Below are positions 9,846-64,000 of a stretch of 64,000 bases of DNA, piece after piece. Numbering within the stretch: the first letter of the stretch is position 1; every line of letters starts with the position of its first letter. Origin of the DNA: Palleronia aestuarii (GTDB lineage Bacteria; Pseudomonadota; Alphaproteobacteria; Rhodobacterales; Rhodobacteraceae); NCBI RefSeq assembly GCF_003253995.1, contig NZ_QKZL01000005.1, positions 186,001 through 250,000 on the forward strand, written 5' to 3'. Under the pieces are notes generated by a model that was not told the origin of the DNA, did no database searches, and saw only the letters and a list, made by a program, of their open reading frames with translations. Both the position numbers and the translations under genes were made by a program.

Positions 9846-10787
9846 ATGCCGATCTTTCTCGTCCGCCGCTTCCTCGCCGCGATCCCGGTTCTCCTGACCG
9901 TGGCGGTCTTCGTCTTCCTTCTGCTGCGCCTGACGCCGGGCGATCCGGCGGCGATCATCGCCGGTGACATGGCGACCCCGGAACAACTCGAGCGGATCCG
10001 GGCGACCCTCGGGCTCGACCAGCCCATCATCGTGCAGTTCGGCACCTGGATCGTCGATATCCTGCGCGGCGATTTCGGCACGTCGCTGATCTCGCGCCAG
10101 CCCGTTCTCAACCTCGTCACCGACCGGATGTGGCCGACGATCTGGATCGGTCTCATCACCATCGCACTTTCCGTGATCATCGCGGTGCCCATGGGCGTGC
10201 TCGCGGCCTGGAAGCAGGGAAGCTGGATCGATCACCTGGTGATGACCTTCTCGGTCCTGGGCTTCTCCGTTCCGGTCTTCGTCACGGGCTATCTGCTCAT
10301 CACGCTCTTCGCGCTCGACCTGCAGCTCTTCCCCGTGCAGGGCTACACCCCGCCGAGCCAGGATTTCGGGTCCTTCGCCGCGCGGGTCGTGCTGCCGTCC
10401 TTCACGCTCGCCTCGATCTACATCGCCCTCATCGCGCGGATGACGCGGGCGAGTCTCCTGAACGTGCTCGGGGAGGATTACGTGCGGACCGCGCGGGCGA
10501 AGGGTCTCACGGAGCGGCGGGTCCTCTTCCGCCACGCGCTTCGGAACGCCGCCGTTCCGGTGATGACGGTCATCGGCACGGGCTTCGCTTTGCTGATCTC
10601 GGGCGTGGTCGTGACGGAAAGCGTATTCAACATCCCCGGCCTCGGCCGGCTCACGGTCGATAGCATCTTCGCCCGCGACTATCCCGTCATCCAGGCACTC
10701 ATCCTGCTGACGGCGGGGATCTACGTGCTCGTCAATCTTCTCATCGACATCTCCTATTCCTTCCTTGATCCGAGGATCCGCTACTGA
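9846..10787 (+). CDS. ABC transporter permease, DppB type
   Basis: A 313-aa inner-membrane permease with about six transmembrane segments. It has the DppB-type start (MPIFLVRRFLAAIPVLLTV) and the EAA loop region (DYVRTARAKGLTERRV) that contacts the ATPase. ATG 9846 is preceded by a weak GAGG; the frame is open a little further upstream without conserved sequence. Its stop overlaps the start of the next permease (TGATG), so the two are translationally coupled and should form a heterodimer. Confidence 0.92.
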   Translation: MPIFLVRRFLAAIPVLLTVAVFVFLLLRLTPGDPAAIIAGDMATPEQLERIRATLGLDQPIIVQFGTWIVDILRGDFGTSLISRQPVLNLVTDRMWPTIWIGLITIALSVIIAVPMGVLAAWKQGSWIDHLVMTFSVLGFSVPVFVTGYLLITLFALDLQLFPVQGYTPPSQDFGSFAARVVLPSFTLASIYIALIARMTRASLLNVLGEDYVRTARAKGLTERRVLFRHALRNAAVPVMTVIGTGFALLISGVVVTESVFNIPGLGRLTVDSIFARDYPVIQALILLTAGIYVLVNLLIDISYSFLDPRIRY

Positions 10788-11656
10788 TGGCCGACAAGCT
10801 CATCCGCGGGGCCTTTCCCCTTTCGACGGGCAAGCTCGCCGCACGCGTCGGCTTCGCCCCGACCGTTTCGGCGATCGTCCTCCTCCTGATCGTGCTCGGC
10901 GCGATCTTCGCGCCCTACGTGGCCCCGCACGACCCGATCATGCAGGATCCGACCGCGCGGCTTGCGGCGCCATCTGCCGAATATCCCCTCGGCACGGACA
11001 ATTACGGCCGCGATCTCCTCAGCCGGGTGATCTACGGCGCGCGCGTCTCGCTGATCATCGGCATCGGCGCCACCCTCTTCGCGGTGGTGCTGGGCCTCAC
11101 GATCGGGCTGGTCTCGGGCTTCTTCCGTCTCGCCGACGCGATCGTCATGCGGATCATGGACGGGCTCATGGCGATCCCCTCCGTGCTTCTCGCGATCGCG
11201 ATCGTCTCGCTCATGGGGGCGAGCATCTGGACCGTCATGGCGGCGATCACGATCCCGGAAATTCCCCGCGTCGTCCGGCTCGTCCGGTCCATCGTGCTGT
11301 CTGCGCGCGAGGAGCCCTACGTGGAGGCGGCGTTGTCCCTCGGCACATCGATGCCGCGGATCCTCTGGCGTCACCTGATGCCCAACACCTTCGCGCCGCT
11401 GACCGTGCAGGCCACCTATGTCTGTGCCTCCGCGATCCTGACAGAGGCGATCCTGAGCTTCCTCGGCGCGGGCGTGTCGACGGAGACGCCCACCTGGGGC
11501 AACATCATGGCGGAGGCGCGGCTCTACTTCCAGCTCAAGCCCTCGCTGATCCTTTGGCCCGGACTGGCGCTGTCGCTCTGCATCCTGTCGATCAACCTGC
11601 TCGGAGACGCGGCGCGCGATGTGCTCGATCCGCGCATGGGCAAGCGGGAGGCTTGA
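10787..11656 (+). CDS. ABC transporter permease, DppC type
   Basis: A 289-aa inner-membrane permease, second half of the dipeptide-type pore. It has the N-terminal OppC-like segment, the PLGTDNYGRDLLSRV block at about residues 66-80 and an EAA loop around EPYVEAALSLGTS. It overlaps the upstream permease by one base and is followed after one base by the ATPase gene, giving a tightly packed importer operon. Confidence 0.92.
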   Translation: MADKLIRGAFPLSTGKLAARVGFAPTVSAIVLLLIVLGAIFAPYVAPHDPIMQDPTARLAAPSAEYPLGTDNYGRDLLSRVIYGARVSLIIGIGATLFAVVLGLTIGLVSGFFRLADAIVMRIMDGLMAIPSVLLAIAIVSLMGASIWTVMAAITIPEIPRVVRLVRSIVLSAREEPYVEAALSLGTSMPRILWRHLMPNTFAPLTVQATYVCASAILTEAILSFLGAGVSTETPTWGNIMAEARLYFQLKPSLILWPGLALSLCILSINLLGDAARDVLDPRMGKREA

Positions 11657-11657
11657 G

Positions 11658-13280
11658 ATGACGGTCCTCAGCGTCGAAAACCTCACCGTCGCCATCGACG
11701 ACGCCAAGGGCGCGGAAGTCGTCCGCGGCATCTCGCTCGAGATCGCGGCGGGCGAGACCGTCTGCCTCGTGGGCGAGAGCGGATCGGGCAAGTCCGTGAC
11801 CTCTCTGGCCGCAATGGGCCTTCTTCCCAAGGGCTCGCTCAAGACCACGTCGGGGCGGATTCTCCTCGACGGCGAGGATCTGCTGACGCTGCGCCCGAAT
11901 GAGTTGCGGGAGCGGCGGGCGACGCGGATGTCGATGATCTTCCAGGAGCCGATGACCGCCCTCAATCCGGTGATGAAGGTCGGCGACCAGATCCTCGAAG
12001 TGCTGACCGCCCATACGCGGATGCCGTCGAGCGAGGCGGAGGCGAAGGTTACCGACATCCTCGGCCAGGTGGGATTGCCCGACATCGAGCGCATGGCGTC
12101 GAGCTATCCGCACCAGCTTTCGGGCGGGCAGCGGCAGCGCATCATGATCGCCATGGCGCTCGTCCTCGAGCCGCGGCTCCTGATCGCCGACGAGCCCACC
12201 ACCGCGCTCGACGTGACGACGCAGAAGCAGATCCTGAAGCTCATCAAGGACTTGCAGACCGGGCACGGGACGGCCGTGCTCTTCATCACCCACGACATGG
12301 GCGTCGTTGCGGAGATCGCGGACAGGGTCTACGTCATGAACCAGGGTGCGCTCGTGGAAGACGGGCCCGTGCGGGACGTCATGTCGAACCCGACGAAGGA
12401 CTATACCCGCAAGCTTCTGAGTTCCGTCCCCTCGCTCGACCCGCGCGCGCCGCGTCCGCCGCGCTCGAAGAAGCCGACCCTCGTGGTGAGCGACCTGAAC
12501 AAGGTCTATGGCGGCGGCGGATTCCTCAAGCGCGGGGCCGAAACCCATGCGGTGAAGGACGTGTCGCTGGAGCTCATGTCGGGCCGCACGCTTGGCGTCG
12601 TGGGCGAAAGCGGTTCCGGAAAGAGCACGCTCGCGCGCTGCGTGATGCGGATGATCGACATCACGTCGGGCGGCGTGAAGATCGGCGGGCAGGAGATCGG
12701 GCAGTTCGGGCGGCGGGCGATGCATCCCTATCGCAAGCGGTTGCAGATGGTGTTTCAGGATCCTTATCGTTCGCTCAATCCGCGGTTGACGGTGGAGCAG
12801 AGCATCGTCGAGGGGCCGGTGAATTACGGTATGCCCCGCAAGGAGGCCCGCGCGAAGGCGGCGGAGCTTCTGGACCTCGTCGGCCTGCCCACGAACGCGC
12901 TCGGACGTTATCCGCACATGTTCTCCGGAGGGCAGCGGCAGCGCATCGCGGTGGCGCGTGCGCTCGCGATGGAGCCAGAGCTTCTCGTGGCCGACGAGGC
13001 GGTCTCCGCCCTCGACGTGTCGGTTCAGGCGCAGGTCCTTGATCTTCTGGACGAAATCCAGGACCGGACGGGGATCGCGATCCTTTTCATCACCCACGAT
13101 CTGCGCGTCGCGGCGCAGGTTTGCGACGAGGTCGCGGTCATGCATCGCGGACGGGTGGTGGAGATGGGCACGACGCGGGACGTGCTCGGCAATCCGCAGC
13201 ACGAGTACACGCAGAGCCTTTTGGCCGCCGCGCCGGGGCGGGACTGGGACTTCGCCAATTTCCGCCCCGTGGCGGCGTGA
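11658..13280 (+). CDS. Fused double ABC ATPase of dipeptide-type importer
   Basis: A 540-aa protein joining the DppD- and DppF-like ATPases, as in GsiA. Domain 1 has Walker A at 39-46 (GESGSGKS), signature LSGGQRQ at 154-160 and Walker B around 177-180. Domain 2 has Walker A at 316-323, signature SGGQRQR at 423-429 and Walker B around 443-447. Domain 2 reads ADEAVSALD where ADEPVSALD is usual; the catalytic Glu is kept, so activity should not be lost. It completes a self-sufficient importer. The 187 bp after it hold the first 11-bp repeat array. Confidence 0.92.
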   Translation: MTVLSVENLTVAIDDAKGAEVVRGISLEIAAGETVCLVGESGSGKSVTSLAAMGLLPKGSLKTTSGRILLDGEDLLTLRPNELRERRATRMSMIFQEPMTALNPVMKVGDQILEVLTAHTRMPSSEAEAKVTDILGQVGLPDIERMASSYPHQLSGGQRQRIMIAMALVLEPRLLIADEPTTALDVTTQKQILKLIKDLQTGHGTAVLFITHDMGVVAEIADRVYVMNQGALVEDGPVRDVMSNPTKDYTRKLLSSVPSLDPRAPRPPRSKKPTLVVSDLNKVYGGGGFLKRGAETHAVKDVSLELMSGRTLGVVGESGSGKSTLARCVMRMIDITSGGVKIGGQEIGQFGRRAMHPYRKRLQMVFQDPYRSLNPRLTVEQSIVEGPVNYGMPRKEARAKAAELLDLVGLPTNALGRYPHMFSGGQRQRIAVARALAMEPELLVADEAVSALDVSVQAQVLDLLDEIQDRTGIAILFITHDLRVAAQVCDEVAVMHRGRVVEMGTTRDVLGNPQHEYTQSLLAAAPGRDWDFANFRPVAA

Positions 13281-13302: not shown

Positions 13303-13456
13303 CGTACACCACGCGTACACCACAGGTACACGGCCCGTGCAGCGAACGTGCATCCCGCGTACACGGGACGTGCATCCCGCGTGCCGACATCGTGCACAGG
13401 GTGTCGCGACATCGTACACGGGGCGTACACAACCAGCGTCCGCACCGTTCAGATTT
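13303..13456 (+). repeat. 11-bp-phased CGTRCA repeat array 1
   Basis: Fourteen successive 11-bp registers with core CGTRCA(C) followed by a variable 4-5 bp. Units start at 13303, 13314, 13325, 13336, 13347, 13358, 13369, 13380, 13391, 13402, 13413, 13424, 13435 and 13446. Nine (13303, 13314, 13336, 13347, 13358, 13369, 13391, 13413, 13424) carry the exact core. Units 13325 (GGTACA), 13380 (CGTGCC) and 13446 (CGTTCA) differ by one base; 13402 is degenerate (TGTCGC) and 13435 has no core. The variable parts differ, so only core and spacing are conserved. The array fills most of the gap between the ABC ATPase stop and the M81 start and ends at the CGGGAGA ribosome-binding site. One unit per helical turn suggests a protein binding along one face of the DNA. 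Confidence 0.9.
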
Positions 13457-13467
13457 CGGGAGACCAC

Positions 13468-15003
13468 ATGACCGCGTCCCGCATCGCCATCGGCGGCTTC
13501 CTGCACGAGACGAACACGTTCGGTCCCTCCAAGGCCACCTACGAGGATTTCGCCCATGGCGGCGGGTCTGGCCGGATGCTTCGCGGTGGGGAGATCCTCG
13601 AGACCTGCGCGGACATGAACGCCGCGATCTCGGGCGCGATCCGGCACGGGACGCAGGCGGGCTGGGACCTGCGCCCGACGCTCTTCTGCTCGACCTCTCC
13701 CTCGGCCCATGTCACGCGCGACGCGTTCGAGCGGATCGCCGACGAGCTGATCGAGCGGATCGTGGCCGAAGGGCCGCTCGACGGGCTCTTCCTCGACCTG
13801 CACGGGGCGATGGTCTGCGAGCATCTCGACGACGGGGAGGGGGAACTGCTCACGCGGCTCCGCGACCGGCTTGGGGCGGACCTGCCGATCGTCGTCTGCC
13901 TCGACCTGCATGCCAACGTCACCGACGCGATGTTCGCCCATGCCGACACGCTCGAGAGCTATCGCACCTATCCGCATGTGGACATGGCGCAGACGGGGCT
14001 CAGGGGCGCGCGGGCGCTCGGGCGGATGCTTGAGGGCGGCAAGCCCGAAAAGGCGCTGCGCGTGGCGCCGTTCCTGACCGCCATCGCCTGGCAATGCACC
14101 GATGCCGCCCCCGCGAAGGATCTCTACGCGCATCTTAGGGAGCTTGCGGGCGAGGGACGCGACGTGAGCTTCAACATGGGCTTTCCGGCGGCGGATTTCC
14201 CGCAATGCCGGATGAGCGTCACCGCCTACGGCCCCGGCGCCGACGAGGCCGCCGACAGCCTGATGGCGGCCATCGAGGCGGCCGAGCCAGATTTCACGGG
14301 CGAGGTCTTCTCTCCGGCGGACGGCGTGGCGGAAGCGATCCGGCTCGCCGGTCTGCCCGAGACGGACGGCCCCGTCATCATCGCCGACACGCAGGACAAT
14401 CCCGGCGCGGGCGCGGACAGCAACACGACCGGCATGATCCGCGCGATGGTCGACGCGGGCGCGCGGGGCGCGCTCGGCAATCTCTACGATCCGGAGGCCG
14501 CGCGCGCGGCCCATGCGGCGGGCGAGGGGGCCACGCTCCGCATCGCGCTCGGCGGCCGGTCGCGGGTCGCGGGCGACGCGCCCTTCGAGGCGGAGTTCCT
14601 CGTGGAGCGCGTCTCCGACGGGGCCTTCACGGCCACGGGGCCCTATTACCGGGGCCGCAAGATGCAGATGGGCCCGTCGGCCTGCCTCAGGATCGGGGAT
14701 CTGCGCATCGTCGTCGTTTCCGCCAAGGCGCAGATGGCCGACCGCGCGATGTTCCGCCAGGTGGGCATCGTGCCGGAGGAGGAGCCGATCCTCGTCGTCA
14801 AGAGCTCCGTCCATTTCCGCGCCGATTTCGCGCCCGTCGCGGGCGCGCTTCTCGTCTGCGCCGCGCCGGGGCCGATGGCCGTCGATCCGGCGCTTCTGCC
14901 CTGGACGCGGCTCGAACCGGGGATCAGGCTCGGCGCGCTCGGCCCGGCCTTCGCGCCGCCGGAAAACGTACCCACGAAGGAGACAGAGAATGCCCGTCAT
15001 TGA
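13468..15003 (+). CDS. M81 family metallopeptidase (MlrC-like)
   Basis: A 511-aa protein of the M81/MlrC family, named from microcystin-degradation protein MlrC; members are zinc hydrolases of small peptides or amides. Visible marks are FLHETNTF at about residues 11-18, CLDLHANVTD near 145 and a DNPGAGADSNTTG block near 310. ATG 13468 has GGGAGA just upstream. The 3' end overlaps the next gene by 14 bp. It lies downstream of the dipeptide-type importer, separated by the 11-bp repeat array, and upstream of two M20 hydrolases, so it probably degrades the imported compound. Confidence 0.88.
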   Translation: MTASRIAIGGFLHETNTFGPSKATYEDFAHGGGSGRMLRGGEILETCADMNAAISGAIRHGTQAGWDLRPTLFCSTSPSAHVTRDAFERIADELIERIVAEGPLDGLFLDLHGAMVCEHLDDGEGELLTRLRDRLGADLPIVVCLDLHANVTDAMFAHADTLESYRTYPHVDMAQTGLRGARALGRMLEGGKPEKALRVAPFLTAIAWQCTDAAPAKDLYAHLRELAGEGRDVSFNMGFPAADFPQCRMSVTAYGPGADEAADSLMAAIEAAEPDFTGEVFSPADGVAEAIRLAGLPETDGPVIIADTQDNPGAGADSNTTGMIRAMVDAGARGALGNLYDPEAARAAHAAGEGATLRIALGGRSRVAGDAPFEAEFLVERVSDGAFTATGPYYRGRKMQMGPSACLRIGDLRIVVVSAKAQMADRAMFRQVGIVPEEEPILVVKSSVHFRADFAPVAGALLVCAAPGPMAVDPALLPWTRLEPGIRLGALGPAFAPPENVPTKETENARH

Positions 15004-23067: not shown

Positions 23068-23144
23068 TGGTCGGAGTGAGAGGATTCGAACCTCCGACCC
23101 CTGCCTCCCGAAGGCAGTGCTCTACCAAGCTGAGCTACACTCCG
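23068..23144 (-). tRNA. tRNA-Pro (CGG), CCA encoded
   Basis: 77 nt on the minus strand with a complete cloverleaf: acceptor CGGAGTG/CACTCCG, D-arm GCTC/GAGC, anticodon arm CTGCC-TTCGGGA-GGCAG giving anticodon CGG, T-arm GGAGG-TTCGAAT-CCTCT with one G-U pair, discriminator A and genomic CCA. It begins 14 bases after the stop of the DMT transporter on the same strand. Its 3' end faces the truncated-gene scar at 22.1-22.9 kb. Confidence 0.97.
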
Positions 23145-25917: not shown

Positions 25918-27018
25918 CTACTCGAGGTCCAGGTCGGCCCAGACGATGCGGTGCCGCGGCCAGTCCTCCACGGGGCCGAGCGCCTCGGCTTCGGGCGTGC
26001 CTGGGGCGGGCCAGTAGACGCCCGCGCCTCGGACCGCGAGATCGGCCGAGGGGATCAGGTAATCGACCCGGAGATTGCCCGGAGGATCGTCGAAATCGGC
26101 GGTATCGAGGGCGGGATCGCCGGTATGGCCGGGATCCGCGGCAGCGGCGCCACCCGCGCTTCGCGGCGCGATGTCCCGGAGCCGCGGATCGGAGAGGAGC
26201 GTATCCATCGCCGCGCGCCGCCCGTCGCCGTCTTCGGGGTCGAGATTGGCATTGCCGAGGATCACGAAGGGCGTCGGAGGCGGCGGCGTGTAGAGGTCGC
26301 CGTCGACGAGGCGCAGCCAGAGCGCCGCCTCGTCGTGGTTGCGCCGCCCGTTCAGATCCTCCGGCCCGTCGAAGACCGGCGGCGTCGCGCGCCAGGTGAG
26401 AAGGGTGAGGGGAGTGCCGTCGATCTCGACCGGCACGATCCAGTGGGCGGTGCTCGAGAGGCGCTGGATCGCGGCGGCCTCCTCGGAGGGGAAGGCGCGC
26501 CCCTCGATCATCGGGGGAATGGCGCCCGGAAGATCGCGCCAGAGCAGGCCGGAGAGATCCACGGCATCCTCGGCAAGTATCTCGAAACGCGAGAGAATCG
26601 CCAGCCCGTCGGCCCCGGCGAAGCGGCCGTATCCCTGCGCGTCGCGCGGGTCGCCGAGATCGCCGTCGCCGTTCATGTCGAGCCCCGTCGCCATCCCGGT
26701 ATTCGGGCGCAGCGCGAAGCGGTGGGGGTAGTCGGGTCCGTCCTCGGCGATCCGGTCGGCCAGCACCGACAGCGTGGCGCCGCCCGCGTCGTAGTCGATG
26801 CCCTGCAGGACCAGGATGTCGGGGGCGACGGCGGCGATCATCCCGAGCGCGACCTCCGCCTGCGGGGAGCGGCCGTCGGTGAGATCGCGCAGGAGGAGGC
26901 CGGGGCCGCGGGCGGTGAGGCCGGTGTCGAAGGTGGCGACGCGGATCGTGTCCGCACCCGCCGCGGTCGTGGCGAGCCAGGCGGCGAGAAGGGCCCCGGC
27001 GGGGCGCAGACGCGTCAG
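25918..27018 (-). CDS. Endonuclease/exonuclease/phosphatase family protein, probable CTG start
   Basis: A secreted-type protein of the EEP fold. The body shows [16 protein letters not shown], a calcium-loop-like [10 protein letters not shown] segment, [16 protein letters not shown] and DYLIPS near the C-terminus, the phosphodiesterase layout. The first ATG (26841) lies inside the domain. Upstream codons stay open and encode [19 protein letters not shown], a good signal peptide, followed by [12 protein letters not shown]. The only start fitting this is CTG 27018, whose CTGA overlaps the leuD stop. GNAN replaces the usual GDFN; with this and the DYDAGG block, metal binding should be checked. 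Export to the periplasm or outside is inferred. Confidence 0.7.
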
Positions 27019-27620
27019 ACCCAGGGCCGCGCCTGCGCGAACTCGGTCTCAAACCCGTCGATCGCGGCGCCCTTCTCGAGGGTCAGGCCGATATCGTCCA
27101 AACCATTGAGAAGGCAGTGCTTTCGGAACGGATCGATCTCGAAGGGGAGGGTGCGGCCGTCCGACATGGTGATCTCCTGCGCTTCGAGATCGACGCTGAT
27201 GCGGGCATTCGCGCCCTTCTCCGCGTCCTCCATCACCAGATCGACCTGATCCTGCGGCAGGGCGATGGGCAGGATGCCGTTCTTGAAGCAATTGTTGTAG
27301 AAGATGTCGGCGTAGGAGGGCGCGATGATGCAGCGGATGCCGAAATCCGCGATCGCCCAGGGCGCGTGTTCGCGCGACGAGCCGCAGCCGAAATTGTCCC
27401 CGGTGACAAGCACTTGCGCGTCGCGGTAGGCCGGTTTGTTCAACACGAAATCGGGATTTTCGGAGCCGTCGTCGAGATAGCGCATCTCGTCGAAGAGGTT
27501 CACGCCCAGTCCCGAACGCTTGATCGTCTTCAGGAACTGCTTGGGGATGATCATGTCGGTATCGACGTTGATCTGGGGCAGGGGCGCGGCGATGCCCTGC
27601 AATTCGGTGAACTTCTCCAT
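27015..27620 (-). CDS. leuD: 3-isopropylmalate dehydratase small subunit
   Basis: 201 aa, full length. It pairs with LeuC to isomerise 2- to 3-isopropylmalate in leucine biosynthesis. Visible marks: [16 protein letters not shown] near the N-terminus and [16 protein letters not shown] at about 74-89, the substrate loop. ATG 27620 has AAGGAG upstream. It is followed by the nuclease-like gene and leuB. The second 11-bp repeat array begins 36 bp upstream of the start codon. Its partner leuC lies 4.7 kb away on the same strand, separated by inserted genes. Confidence 0.97.
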
Positions 27621-27655: not shown

Positions 27656-27776
27656 CGTACACCAGCCGTACACGGGACGTACAGACCGCGTGCACCGCGC
27701 GTACGCCCCCCGTGCATATGCCGTGCAGCGGATGTGCAGCGGACGTACGGCGAGCGTGCACGGAATGTCGGACGCG
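27656..27776 (+). repeat. 11-bp-phased CGTRCA repeat array 2
   Basis: Eleven contiguous 11-bp units with core CGTRC(A). They start at 27656, 27667, 27678, 27689, 27700, 27711, 27722, 27733, 27744, 27755 and 27766. Two units read CGTACG (27700, 27744), one has TGTGCA (27733), and the last is degenerate (TGTCGG), the same variant found in array 1. The array lies upstream of leuD, and its core runs opposite to leuD transcription. It shares the stretch CGTACACGGGACGTRCA with array 1, though flanking genes are unrelated. Confidence 0.9.
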
Positions 27777-27867: not shown

Positions 27868-28710
27868 TCAGGCGCGGCGGCGCAGGAACCCGAGCAATCC
27901 GAGACCGGCCACGAGAAGCGGCAGCGATGCGGGGACCGGGACGGCGGCCACGGGCGGCAGCGGGTCCACCGGATCGGTCGGCTCCATCGGAATTTCGGGA
28001 ACGCCGGGCGGCACGATGACGTCACCGGGCTCGCCGAAGCGCACGTTGTCGATGTTGTATCCCGCGGGCTCGGAGCCGACGAGATCGAGGAAGACGCCTG
28101 CGATCTCAGACATCCCGTCCGCCGAGACGAGGCCGAGGAACTCGATCCCCCTGGTCTCGTTCGTCACGGTTCCCAGAAGCTCGCCCTGCCGCCCGAACGC
28201 CGTGATGCCCGTCGATTGCGCGGCGTCGAAGAATCCGCCCTCGAACCCGACGGCGAGCTGATCCTCGTCGAAGAGAAGCGCGATCGGTCCGTTGAACCGC
28301 GGTGTGCCGCTCAGTGTGGGCGAGGTGGGAAAGGAGGAATCGTTCGTGATGAACGTATTCGGCGCGTCGGCGTCGAGGGTGAGTTCACCGGTCGGCGCCC
28401 CGGAGATGCATCCCGACGGCGATGCGGAGGGACAATCCACGGACGGGTTATCGCTCAGCGACTGTCCGACGAAGTATCCGCCCGTCGTGACCGTGGGCGC
28501 TGTCGTGTCCGCGCCGTAATCCGACGGGGTGTAGACCGGGTTGAGCGTTCCGAGGTTGAACTCCGAGAAGGTGATCAGGCCGGCGCCGGCGGCGAAATTA
28601 TCCTCCGTCACCCTGACCACGGCGGCCGGGGCGATCGTCGCCGTGACCACCGTCGCCACGCCGATGGCGGGTGCGATAAGGCGTAGCGTCCTAACGGGAC
28701 AGAATTTCAT
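27868..28710 (-). CDS. VPLPA-CTERM sorting-domain surface protein
   Basis: A 280-aa exported protein. It has an N-terminal signal peptide (RTLRLIAPAIGVATVVTAT), a Thr/Pro/Asp-rich body with two cysteines close together (SVDCPSASPSGC), and a proline-rich stalk. The end is VPVPASLPLLVAGLGLLGF plus RRRA, the VPLPA-CTERM tripartite tail processed by exosortase-type enzymes. Three ATGs in a row precede it; the third (28710) has GGAG seven bases upstream. The function of the body is unknown. No exosortase is in the window. It separates leuD from leuC. Confidence 0.82.
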   Translation of the reverse strand: MKFCPVRTLRLIAPAIGVATVVTATIAPAAVVRVTEDNFAAGAGLITFSEFNLGTLNPVYTPSDYGADTTAPTVTTGGYFVGQSLSDNPSVDCPSASPSGCISGAPTGELTLDADAPNTFITNDSSFPTSPTLSGTPRFNGPIALLFDEDQLAVGFEGGFFDAAQSTGITAFGRQGELLGTVTNETRGIEFLGLVSADGMSEIAGVFLDLVGSEPAGYNIDNVRFGEPGDVIVPPGVPEIPMEPTDPVDPLPPVAAVPVPASLPLLVAGLGLLGFLRRRA

Positions 28711-28811
28711 CATCATACTCCAATTGCTCGCACTAATGCAGCAGTTCGGAGCCCGACCGACGGGATTCCATGTGCAGGCGGACCGCGACTGCCAGTTCGA
28801 CGCTAGGAGAG

Positions 28812-45493: not shown

Positions 45494-46789
45494 TCACAGA
45501 TAAAAGAGATTGGTGTCGAGAAGGCCCGACAGGGTGTCGGGATCTAGCCCCGCGAAGAGGATCGTGTTGTCCTCTCCCAGGTCGAGCAGCGTGTCGTCGC
45601 CGAAGCCGATCATCCGGGTCGCGAGGCTCGCGGCGTCGAGCCCGGTCAGGCCGTTCATTTCCCGCTCGATATGGAGCGCGTCGTCGGCGGAGAAGTCGGT
45701 GACGACGTCGTTGCCCGACTGGCCGCGGAACTCGAAGATGTCGGACCCGGCCCCGCCGGTGAGCACGTCGGTGCCCGCGCCGCCGTTCAGCCGGTCGTTG
45801 CCCGCGCCGCCATCGATCCGGTCGTCGTGCCGGCCGCCGTGGATCCAGTCGTCGCCGTCCTCGCCGTAGATGAGGTCGTCGCCCCGGCCGAGATCGTCGA
45901 TCGCGGCGACGAAATCGTCTCCCGCCCCGAGCCAGATCGTATCGTCGCCATGACCGCCATCCGCGTAATCGTCGCCGTCGCCGGCCCGGATCACGTCCGC
46001 CGACGCGCCGCCGTGGAGGACGTCGCGATCGGCGCCGCCGTCGATCTCGTCGCGTCCGCCACCGCCGTGAATCGTGTCGCGTCCGTCGCCGCCGTCGAGG
46101 GTGTCGGCGCCCGCGCCGCCTAGCAGCCGGTCGTCGCCCGCCTCGCCGAAGAGGCGGTCGGCCCCGTTGTCGCCCCGCAGCAGGTCGTCGCCCGCGCCGC
46201 CATGCAGGACGTCGTCGCCGTCCTGTCCGCGCAGCGTGTCGTTGCCCGCGTCTCCGTGCAGCAGATCGGTGCCGTAGGAGCCCTCGAGGCGGTCGTTGCC
46301 GTCGCCGCCATACATGACGTCGACCGAGAGCCGCTTCTCGGCCCGCCAGACCTGGAAGGATTCGTAGGGCCCCGAATAGGTGGCCCAGCGGACATCGAGC
46401 ACGTCGTCGCCCGCCCCCCCGACGAGGAGGTTCGACCCCCCGCCGCCATGCAGGGTGTCGTTGCCGTCCTGGCCGAGGAGGATGTCGATCCCGGCACCGC
46501 CCTCGATGAGGTCGGCGTCGCTGCCGCCCAGAAGCGCGTCATTGCCGTCGCCGCCCCGGAGCGTGTCGCCGCCACCCGAGGCGAAGACGAGATCGTTGCC
46601 CGCCCCGCCATCGACGAGGTCCGCATCCTGCGTCCCGATGATGATGTCGCCCGCGTCGCTGCCGGCGGAAGACCCGGTCGGCAGGGGCAAGAAGGTCAGG
46701 TTCGAATGGAGGAGTGTCGAGAGGCGCCCGGCATCGGAAAGGAGCGCGGACGCGAAGGTATTCAAAGCGTTTGAAAGCGAGATCGCCAT
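45494..46789 (-). CDS. RTX calcium-binding protein (431 aa)
   Basis: A secreted-type protein with no Sec signal. A short N-terminal region is followed from about residue 45 to 370 by many GGxGxDxLx nonapeptides, which bind calcium and fold as parallel beta rolls outside the cell. One interruption (about 125-155, [19 protein letters not shown]) breaks the array. The tail is non-repeat and ends LDTNLFYL, an acidic-then-hydrophobic end typical of type I secretion substrates. A probable client of the PrtD/HlyD-like exporter at 54.4-57.4 kb. No enzymatic domain is visible. Confidence 0.88.
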
Positions 46790-47082: not shown

Positions 47083-47817
47083 GTGGCTACAATTCCAGGC
47101 GGTGCATTCAACGATTTTGTCTTCGGAACGTCCGAGAGCGACTTCATCAGCGCAGGCGGCGGCGCCGATACCGTGATCGCGGGATCGGGTGACGATATCA
47201 TCGACGGCGGCGCGGGAGACGACATGCTCAATGGCGGATCCGGCGAAGATCAGGTCTATGGCGGGGAGGGCGACGACCTCCTCCTCGGCGGATCGGGCAG
47301 CGACACGCTCTCGGGCGACGAGGGCGACGACACGGTTCTGGGAGGGGCGGGCGACGACGTCATGGAGGGCGGAGCGGGTGACGACCTGATGGTCGGCGGC
47401 TCCGGCGACGACACGCTCGAAGGGGGAACGGGAGACGATCGGCTCGAAGGGGGATCGGGCGACGATCTGCTGCAGGGCGGGGCGGGCGACGACCTTCTCT
47501 ACGGCGGCAAGGGCGACGATACGATCGACGGCGGCGCGGGCGACGACGTGATGTTCGGCGGCGACGGCGACGACCTCTTCGTCTTCTCGGGTGGCGGCGA
47601 CGTCATCATGGATTTCTCCGACGGCGATATCCTGCAGATCGCCGGGACGCTCGACGGCCTGTCGCTCGAGGGGGCGGCCGACGTCGCCGGCTATGCCATC
47701 GATCTCGGCGCGGAAGGCACGCTCATCGATTTCGAACAGGGCGACAGCATTCTTCTCAAGGGGGTGTCCTACGAGGAAATCACCGCCGATCCGGAGAAGT
47801 TCTTCACGATCGTCTAA
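47083..47817 (+). CDS. RTX calcium-binding protein (244 aa)
   Basis: A protein built almost only of GGxGxDD nonapeptides, about 15 in a row between residues 20 and 165, then a C-terminal cap (VIMDFSDGDILQIAG) ending KFFTIV, which fits a type I secretion signal. I start at GTG 47083 (MATIPGGAFNDF) because AAGGGG lies eight bases upstream; GTG 47029 is the other candidate. It is extremely acidic, suiting a calcium-bound matrix or surface-layer component. It precedes the glycosyltransferase/secretion operon by 84 bp. Confidence 0.88.
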   Translation: MATIPGGAFNDFVFGTSESDFISAGGGADTVIAGSGDDIIDGGAGDDMLNGGSGEDQVYGGEGDDLLLGGSGSDTLSGDEGDDTVLGGAGDDVMEGGAGDDLMVGGSGDDTLEGGTGDDRLEGGSGDDLLQGGAGDDLLYGGKGDDTIDGGAGDDVMFGGDGDDLFVFSGGGDVIMDFSDGDILQIAGTLDGLSLEGAADVAGYAIDLGAEGTLIDFEQGDSILLKGVSYEEITADPEKFFTIV

Positions 47818-63107: not shown

Positions 63108-64000
63108 ATGTCCAACCGTCTGTCGACCCTTTCCGGCCTTGCCGGGCTACTCGCCACCAGCGCCGCGGTCGCCGACGTGCCGCAGGTCGCGACCGATATC
63201 GCCCCCGTTCATGGGCTCGTGGCGCGGGTGATGGGCGATCTCGGCGAGCCGACGCTGATCGTCCAGCCCGGCGCCTCCCCCCACGGTCATTCGATGCGCC
63301 CCTCCGAGGCGCGGGGCCTACAGGAGGCGGATGCCGTCTTCTGGATCGGGCCCGAACTCGAGCCCTGGCTGGAGAATGCGATCGCCAACCTCGCGCCCGG
63401 GGCGGAGGCCGTGGAGCTCCTGGAGGTTCCCGGCACGCAGACGCACGAATTCCGCACCGGCGCGACCTTCGCGCCGCACGATCATGGCGATCACGAGGGC
63501 CATGATCACGAGGATGACCATGCCCATGAGGAGGGGCACGATCACGAGGGCGAACATGCCCACGATGAGGACCACGAACACGAGGATGACCATGCGCATG
63601 GGGAGACGCACGATCACTTGGGCGAACACGCTCATGGGGAGGCGCACGATCATGCAGAGAGCGAACATGGTCATTCCCATGAGGGCGTCGATCCCCATGC
63701 CTGGCTCGACCCGGAGAACGCAAAGACCTGGCTCGACGCGATCGCCGTGACATTGGGCGAACTCGACGTCGAGAACGCCGAAACCTACGCGTCGAACGCC
63801 GCAGCCGGAAAGGCCGAGATCGACACGGCGGTGGAGGACGCGAGGAATACGCTCCGGGACGTCAAGGACCTGCGCTTCGTGGTCTTCCACGACGCATATC
63901 GCTATTTCGAGGAGCGGTTTGGCCTCTCGACCGTCGGCGCCATCGAACTCAGCGATGCGTCCGATCCCTCGCCGGCGCGGGTCGAGGAGGTGCGCGACAC
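63108..64000 (+). CDS. znuA: Zinc ABC transporter substrate-binding protein (partial)
   Basis: A periplasmic zinc receptor, 297 codons to the window end without a stop. Signal peptide MSNRLSTLSGLAGLLATSAAVA. Zinc ligands are expected at His56-type PHGHSMRPSE, and DPHAWLDPENAK follows the loop. Between them (about residues 122-195) is a long His/Asp/Glu-rich loop of repeated HDHE-like units, longer than in many ZnuA proteins, which would sequester or sense zinc. VFHDAYRYFEERFGL near 265 is the third ligand region. Divergent from zur. Confidence 0.92.
   Translation, partial: MSNRLSTLSGLAGLLATSAAVADVPQVATDIAPVHGLVARVMGDLGEPTLIVQPGASPHGHSMRPSEARGLQEADAVFWIGPELEPWLENAIANLAPGAEAVELLEVPGTQTHEFRTGATFAPHDHGDHEGHDHEDDHAHEEGHDHEGEHAHDEDHEHEDDHAHGETHDHLGEHAHGEAHDHAESEHGHSHEGVDPHAWLDPENAKTWLDAIAVTLGELDVENAETYASNAAAGKAEIDTAVEDARNTLRDVKDLRFVVFHDAYRYFEERFGLSTVGAIELSDASDPSPARVEEVRD

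Follow-up and report, generated by a model that had tools for sequence, protein, structure and literature searches.

The known polar signals that act on the scale of a chromosome have each led to a machine: FtsK, RecBCD and Tus. The FtsK-orienting polar sequences (KOPS) are single 8-mers, numerous and dense near the terminus, and are read by certain residues of the recognition helix in the FtsK γ domain. The nucleoid-occlusion sites bound by SlmA (SBS) and Noc (NBS) are palindromic and unpolarised, with tens of them dispersed along the chromosome arms. Tandem direct repeats are found in the partition site parC, a single cluster beside parM/parR on a plasmid, where 11-bp units are bound by ParR, a protein of ribbon-helix-helix fold, and in the boxes of PhoB/OmpR-type regulators, in which 7 conserved and 4 variable bp are repeated head to tail and which control adjacent promoters. 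OmpR/PhoB-type and ribbon-helix-helix proteins both bind with one subunit per unit.

Here we describe intergenic arrays of 11-bp units, found in a 64-kb stretch of DNA (the window) and in the genome to which it belongs (G000; 4.54 Mb in 77 contigs), that probably form a polar chromosomal landmark, with one predicted protein subunit per helical turn, tied to replication or segregation. The arrays resemble SBS and NBS in being tens of sites dispersed along the arms, but are polar, head-to-tail direct repeats. With ParR–parC and the iterons of partition systems they share direct 11-bp repeats, one protein unit per turn (here predicted) and a ribbon-helix-helix lead, of BrnA type; they differ in being 25 dispersed chromosomal arrays in G000, and no par gene was recognised among 168 genes neighbouring arrays. 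Repetitive elements of the REP/BIME kind are likewise intergenic, multicopy and alike within a genome, whereas the arrays do not fold better than shuffled sequences, are polarised with replication and occupy sites common to several genera. No description of such arrays was found in the open literature, most subscription papers lying outside the search, and we rate them as categorically new as a chromosomal signal, their function being a matter of proposal.

Array 1 (13303–13434, + strand) is composed of 12 head-to-tail units of the form CGTRCA-N5. Counted from 13303, slots 1–6 read CGTACACCACG CGTACACCACA GGTACACGGCC CGTGCAGCGAA CGTGCATCCCG CGTACACGGGA and slots 7–12 read CGTGCATCCCG CGTGCCGACAT CGTGCACAGGG TGTCGCGACAT CGTACACGGGG CGTACACAACC. 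Units 1–3 begin with CGTACAC or GGTACAC and units 11 and 12 with CGTACAC, unit 10 is degenerate, and the others are mostly of the CGTGC type. The core GTRC stands in exact 11-bp register in 11 of the 12 slots (1–9 and 11–12; 13304 to 13428), and in slot 10 (13402, TGTCGCGACAT) GT is kept and GTRC is lost. The 22-bp step from 13391 to 13413 reported in a preliminary description of this DNA was confirmed; its length of 154 bp had to be reduced to 132 bp, the bases past 13434 being out of register. Array 2 (27656–27776, + strand) has 11 units, 10 with GTRC followed by the degenerate unit TGTCGGACGCG. When the window was scanned, array 1 scored at best 11 GTRC cores in 12 slots and array 2 at best 10, against a maximum of 5 slots in 60 first-order Markov copies of the window (58 of which gave 2–3), so that the recurrence of units every 11 bp from 13303 is real. 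Other periods between 7 and 15 bp brought at most 3 slots of the real window into register, and Tandem Repeats Finder returned only fragments.

Array 1 lies between two + strand genes, one encoding an oligopeptide/dipeptide ABC-transporter ATPase (11619–13280; Pfam ABC_tran twice and oligo_HPY) and the other an M81/MlrC metallopeptidase (13468–15003; PF07364 (M81) and PF07171 (MlrC_C)), whose ATG at 13468 follows the end of the array by 33 bp. Array 2 is flanked by two − strand genes: upstream, 35 bp away and divergent from the array, a gene for an Aconitase_C-domain protein (27015–27620; Pfam), probably leuD by inference, and downstream a gene for a PEP-CTERM-tagged protein (27868–28716; Pfam, E = 0.0002). 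The upstream neighbour of array 2 matches the upstream neighbour of an array in another genome, G236. The + strand, on which both arrays are written, is locally the G-rich strand around array 1 (skew +0.032 over ±13 kb and +0.014 over ±5 kb), and its skew around array 2 is +0.051 to +0.062. Rfam models matched only a tRNA gene (23071–23144, − strand) between 12900 and 28500, and no structured RNA at the arrays. Elsewhere in the window, tandem repeats with a period of 27 bp and GGCGACGA-type units (45753–46219 and 47347–47576) probably encode glycine-aspartate-rich, calcium-binding (RTX-like) protein repeats, and repeats of 18, 36 and 72 bp (63495–63669) probably encode a segment rich in His, Asp and Glu, for example a metal-binding loop.

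Array 1 is not a solitary object in its genome. Three consecutive units of the pattern CGTRCA-N5 were matched 70 times in G000, and the reversed pattern not once; the matches cluster into 25 arrays scattered between genes. A 26th, more degenerate array (locus L034, 4360–4451) lies about 0.5 kb from a good one and is possibly a decaying copy; it was counted in the unit profile (26 arrays) and left out of the orientation counts (25 arrays). Aligned on the first unit, the 26 arrays are objects of roughly 12 units (132 bp), in which the core is faint in slot 0, almost complete from slot 1 onward, fades over slots 10–12 and is weak from slot 13. Through slot 11, G2 is present in 92–100% and T3 in 88–100% of the arrays (100% and 88–100% in units 5–10), and the spacer letters vary, in agreement with the conserved core and variable remainder first noted in array 1. 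The units differ from one another: in slots 1–2 position 4 is A in 88–96% of purines, and CGTGCAG is favoured in slots 5–8. One dominant phase is kept in 24 of the 25 strict arrays, which bears out the proposed constraint on spacing. The array of locus L036 comprises 4 units, a 14-bp step (a 3-bp slip) and 7 further units, and it was aligned on its second block, so that the profile values of slots 1–4 are lower by one array. Several arrays carry one to four extra, off-phase GTRC cores, within or after the array. Given the register and the conserved cores, the cores lie on one face of the DNA, for which a cooperatively binding protein, as the preliminary description suggested, is the natural reading. 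The near self-complementarity that it saw in the core holds for some cores only, and single-strand folding of five arrays on both strands (ten strands; z between −0.80 and 1.72) was no better than that of shuffles.

In most relatives examined, arrays consist of about 4 units (about 44 bp) behind an A-rich tract. A profile of 108 distinct arrays, which includes one from G000 (L101) and leaves out two plain-repeat loci and the loci of other phyla, shows an A-rich stretch at −19 to −16, a weaker one 11 bp further upstream and then approximately four 11-bp units, each with a layout of 7 conserved and 4 variable bp; these arrays were chosen for three exact units, and those columns are therefore fixed by selection. 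The strict three-unit pattern occurs in 30 of 394 genomes of the family, a few of them with plain repeats, and the reversed control in 2. Four exact units were found, among the matches listed, in records labelled Nioella, Roseicyclus, Jannaschia, Paracoccus, Maritalea mobilis and others; in a pattern scan of contigs the Rhodobacteraceae loci among the matches listed are array-like, and many others are plain 11-bp tandem repeats. The 13 congeners of G000 have no strict match. The strict motif undercounts arrays, because one of these congeners, G009, has 11 consecutive 11-bp units with another core between serC and serA. A second array of G009, with CGTRC/TGTCGGG, lies at 2.379 Mb (from a search that gave 9 matches, as against 2 for the control, the majority being no arrays). 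Units in G016 are NGTMTGGTTTG-like and at lpd are placed behind GGGGAAAAAC. Those of G014 follow YRTARYTCTTY, with 11 matches in 10 arrays genome-wide and none in the control; its array at lpd, TCTTTCGTAAC, has kin throughout the genome.

Motif and spacers are both genome-specific. The spacer letters (4 of every 11) agree at 0.52–0.79 within six genomes with 4-unit arrays and at 0.20–0.35 between genomes; the spacers of G000 are looser, at 0.38 within the genome, a figure obtained from the 44 bp nearest the locus centre, which do not always begin at unit 1. For 12 orthologous pairs of arrays the agreement ranges from 0.12 to 0.62, the highest values (0.56–0.62) being those of G109–G236 and of one G000–G109 pair, so that a likeness persists in some orthologous arrays. 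On the whole an array is closer to the others of its own genome than to those that share its position in other genomes. The likeness of the spacers in G024 (0.79) exceeds what binding to the core alone would need. In the G024 array near position 10004 of locus L305, a GGGGTGT-CAC-ACACCCC inverted repeat overlaps unit 1; other genera carry GGGGTGACATG or GGGGTGCCCCC in its place.

The addresses of the arrays were compared through the nearest neighbours of 84 arrays in seven genomes, with genes called by a simple codon-usage script; this comparison replaced one by tblastx, which had been noisy in this GC-rich DNA. An orthologous neighbour on the same or the mirrored side was found in 33 of 2,924 between-genome array pairs, compared with 189 of 183,493 pairs of control spacers (the remaining spacers of these loci that are 60 bp or longer), an approximately 11-fold difference, and both flanks are common to 10 array pairs as against 40 control pairs. 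The control rate is itself inflated, because spacers beside shared arrays are syntenic too. Shared sites, all given here under names read from the sequences, include those beside lpd (G000, G014, G142 and G236) and a chorismate-mutase-like gene (G000, G014, G024, G109 and G236), as well as beside an ABC transporter gene (G014, G024, G142 and G236), a gltD-like gene (G000, G109 and G236) and between serC and serA (G000 and G024). Shared sites are occupied in G014 by arrays of another motif. At lpd and serC–serA some species have an array and others do not; in all 13 congeners of G000 lpd has a short spacer and no array, and sites are therefore gained or lost. The array neighbours that were read are mostly unrelated housekeeping genes.

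The orientation of the arrays, the main finding of this analysis, follows the strand composition of the surrounding chromosome. GC skew, taken in array orientation over 10–20 kb around each array with the array itself masked, is positive, that is, the array points along the G-rich strand, in 80 of the 84 arrays (G000, 25 of 25; G024, 10 of 11, drawn from 12 matches; G109, 8 of 9, drawn from 10 matches; G031, 9 of 10; G142, 10 of 10, taken from the 10 places that head a list of 24 matches; G014, 9 of 9, one of 10 regions taken having no match to the script's expression; and G236, 9 of 10). The binomial probability is 2 × 10⁻¹⁹ when arrays are treated as independent, which those at shared sites are not entirely, and approximately 6 × 10⁻⁸ for G000 alone. 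The exceptions are L301, L315 (raw skew only), L394 and L424. With the influence of gene orientation removed, by averaging the skews of forward and of reverse genes, 75 of 78 arrays had positive skew, and the genes flanking the 84 arrays are oriented at random (30 −−, 26 ++, 14 +− and 14 −+), convergent spacers included. The base composition of the arrays is no explanation of the polarity, because their own skew on that strand is 0.00 to −0.36, neutral or C-rich. Among smaller and noisier loci, 37 of 47 (3-kb loci) and 34 of 43 (named loci of up to 8 kb) agree.

Replication direction was inferred from GC skew except in two chromosomes in which dnaA was seen. In G236, dnaA lies at base 1 and the skew flips between 2.4 and 2.64 Mb, which puts the terminus near 2.5 Mb; arrays on the + strand lie at 0.30, 0.46, 1.12 and 1.85 Mb and arrays on the − strand at 3.07, 3.83, 4.04, 4.38 and 4.59 Mb, so that 9 of 10 point from origin to terminus, the exception being a + array at 3.16 Mb. 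On this chromosome one array is separated from dnaA by about 7.5 kb. The G016 chromosome also begins with dnaA and has its skew flip between 1.52 and 1.71 Mb; three of its four arrays fit their arm, and the fourth, at 2.738 Mb, opposes its arm and fits the local 3-kb skew. In G109 the sense of the arrays flips between 1.65 and 1.91 Mb, convergently, as around a terminus. For depletion at the terminus, as for SBS and NBS, one chromosome was informative, that of G236 (10 arrays), where no array lies between 1.85 and 3.07 Mb; the general claim that arrays avoid the terminus was dropped on the evidence of G109. Between serC and serA, the arrays of G000 and G024 have opposite senses with respect to the genes, and the local skew in array orientation is positive in each genome (0.038 and 0.016, the value for G024 being weak). 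The other 32 of the 33 shared pairs keep the sense of the array relative to the genes and are compatible with a replication or a gene reading, so that serC–serA is the only site that separates the two site by site.

These orientations bear directly on the role first proposed for array 1, which had been placed where a promoter or operator should be. An operator array, with a cooperative regulator on 12 phased sites controlling the downstream gene, would suit its position just upstream of the M81 start, and 11-bp direct repeats with a 7 + 4 layout, head to tail, suit regulators of the OmpR/PhoB type. As a general role, control of the adjacent gene is contradicted by the 84 arrays, whose orientation is independent of that of their random flanking genes, even in convergent spacers, and follows the inferred replication strand instead, and by the mostly unrelated housekeeping functions of the neighbours; we regard this explanation as very improbable. 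A wrapping site for gyrase or another architectural protein, with flexible pyrimidine–purine steps phased every 11 bp over about 132 bp in the 12-unit form, would make use of the alternating pyrimidine–purine sequence CGTRCA and of a length (12 × 11 = 132 bp) near that of the gyrase wrap. It seems very unlikely to us, as the near-invariant G2–T3 implies direct readout, arrays are about 44 bp long in most genera examined, and wrapping gives no reason for polarity with replication and leaves motif drift unexpected. A small mobile or copying element that enters single-stranded DNA of the lagging strand could produce biased orientation and likeness within a genome without any function, and the strong strand bias, the greater likeness of spacers within than between genomes and the differences between species in array presence at lpd and serC–serA agree with it. 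The probability of such an element is nonetheless low: it is disfavoured by addresses common to genera approximately 11-fold above control spacers, even where the motif is different, by core positions in G000 that are conserved while spacers diverge, by folding no better than that of shuffles and by the finding that a reading by eye of the first 70 residues of each of the 168 immediate neighbours revealed no recognisable transposase.

Two further explanations take the polarity with replication as their starting point. Like the Tus–Ter and RTP fork traps, the arrays are few polar sites per chromosome (10 in G236) aligned with replication (80 of 84 by skew), and the convergent flip in G109 would also be expected if each array, through a terminator protein different from Tus, stopped the fork arriving from the terminus side. 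They differ from these traps in their tandem 11-bp architecture; Tus (PF05472) was found in 0 of 10 genomes, with a positive control in E. coli, and the arrays of G236, rather than being concentrated at the terminus, span the whole arms, approach the origin and are missing from the region between 1.85 and 3.07 Mb. A fork barrier is accordingly unlikely. That the arrays are the KOPS of this family is suggested by a motif that is polarised chromosome-wide from origin to terminus, as KOPS are. KOPS are not, however, arranged as 10 (G236) to 25 (G000) tandem arrays with a genus-specific motif that are absent around the G236 terminus. The FtsK γ domain was found in all 10 genomes searched, and in the nine sequences examined its central part hardly varies, whereas the array motifs differ; the motif does not follow the domain that would have to read it, and we judge an identity with KOPS to be extremely improbable.

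Genes beside the arrays point to a possible binder. When the first 70 residues of the 168 immediate neighbours were read, small ribbon-helix-helix genes were found just downstream of arrays; Pfam was run on four neighbours in the window, three further array neighbours and one more neighbour, and the rest were read by eye. Such proteins of G236 and G109, encoded beside prfC, match BrnA_antitoxin (PF14384) with E values of 5 × 10⁻¹¹ and 5 × 10⁻¹⁴, and genes for relatives of BrnA type also follow arrays at two further places, one next to mutL in Nioella ostreopsis and N. sediminis and the other in G024. All five genes (L423, 9546–9911, −; L312, 10106–10450, +; L058, from 1602, +; L121, 141–611, −; and L151, 2129–2599, −) lie directly downstream of arrays on the array strand, 48–84 bp from the end of the third core unit. 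A tblastn search (E up to 0.05) of 454 array-centred loci (3.68 Mb) found no BrnA-type gene away from arrays; this survey covered array-centred DNA, in which array neighbours are over-represented, and the BrnA-type genes come from three independent loci. Apart from these genes, the search brought up only short stretches of array sequence that were matched by the untrimmed G024 reading frame. No BrnA-type gene was found in the examined loci of G000, G014, G031 and G142. The recurrence at three unrelated loci is suggestive, and makes a BrnA-type ribbon-helix-helix protein the best lead and a candidate array binder; the genes may encode either true antitoxins or co-opted DNA-binding proteins. A CcdA-like gene of G024 has the same geometry as the BrnA-type genes, genes for HTH-cupin proteins recur beside arrays (G236, G109 and, at locus L081, G229), and LysR, LacI, TetR and GntR types, read by eye, each occur once.

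The arrays keep an 11-bp register and a defined number of units, occupy shared intergenic sites independently of transcription direction, align almost without exception with skew and are alike within a genome, and a 7 + 4 layout that recurs with each helical turn agrees with the binding of one protein subunit to each unit. As polar landmarks they would be bound by a sequence-specific protein, one subunit per unit along one face of the helix. The resulting oligomer would have a direction and would count about 4 subunits in most of the genera examined and about 12 in G000; four or twelve subunits in a row would amount to an oriented filament. Since it is replication and not transcription that the orientation tracks, the polarity would most simply be read by a machine that travels from origin to terminus, with the fork or behind it, such as the replisome, SMC/condensin or another segregation factor, and the arrays may be its stations in chromosome-arm organisation or fork-coupled segregation. 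The specificity of the binding protein would drift between genera and the arrays of a genome would follow, as expected of sites that co-evolve with one trans-acting factor. A bolder version, which we offer tentatively as a possibility, is that the arrays constitute an undescribed class of polar signal in Rhodobacteraceae and kin, loading an oriented oligomer (possibly of BrnA type, co-opted from a toxin–antitoxin family) that would provide directional checkpoints or boundaries for an origin-to-terminus machine (SMC/condensin or the replisome), a functional analogue of polarised CTCF-type boundaries, with a code rewritten in concert at fixed addresses as lineages diverge.

Polar DNA signals of chromosome scale are rare, and a new one with stable addresses and a changing code would, if true, reveal a so far unknown protein that organises the chromosomes of an abundant marine family. 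Experiments could then address how bacterial chromosomes encode the direction of their arms and how DNA codes with many sites co-evolve with their reader; with so few arrays (10 in G236), and each of them short, a single strain could be made in which every array is deleted or inverted.

Sequences resembling the arrays were also encountered elsewhere. A plasmid search with one 44-bp array gave two records, both irrelevant. Viral contigs with the motif (16 with four units and 26 with three, three being in both sets) were rejected, their sequences being repeats of other kinds. In seven viral contigs (L361, L364, L370, L371, L373, L375 and L377) a recurrent block of CGTGCACCACT/CGTGCACCATC, CGTRCACGAAG, CGTGCACGGAT and GGTCACCTAAC is followed by CTAACC/ATAACC-type repeats, and several IMG/VR contigs have it in conserved form. 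In Ignavibacteria (L170) and Limisphaerales (L159, L171 and L183), CGTACA units spaced at 11 bp form runs of up to about 8–10 and may represent either plain tandem repeats or additional families of arrays. In the Bacteroidales metagenome-assembled genomes RGIG2655 and RGIG6188, inverted pairs of 11-bp arrays (CGTACAAATAC CGTACATATAC CGTACAAC and so on) point outward from a short centre (L132, L136, L143, L177, L182, L185, L188 and L197, several contigs belonging to one genome), and look like a separate, symmetric multi-copy array family.
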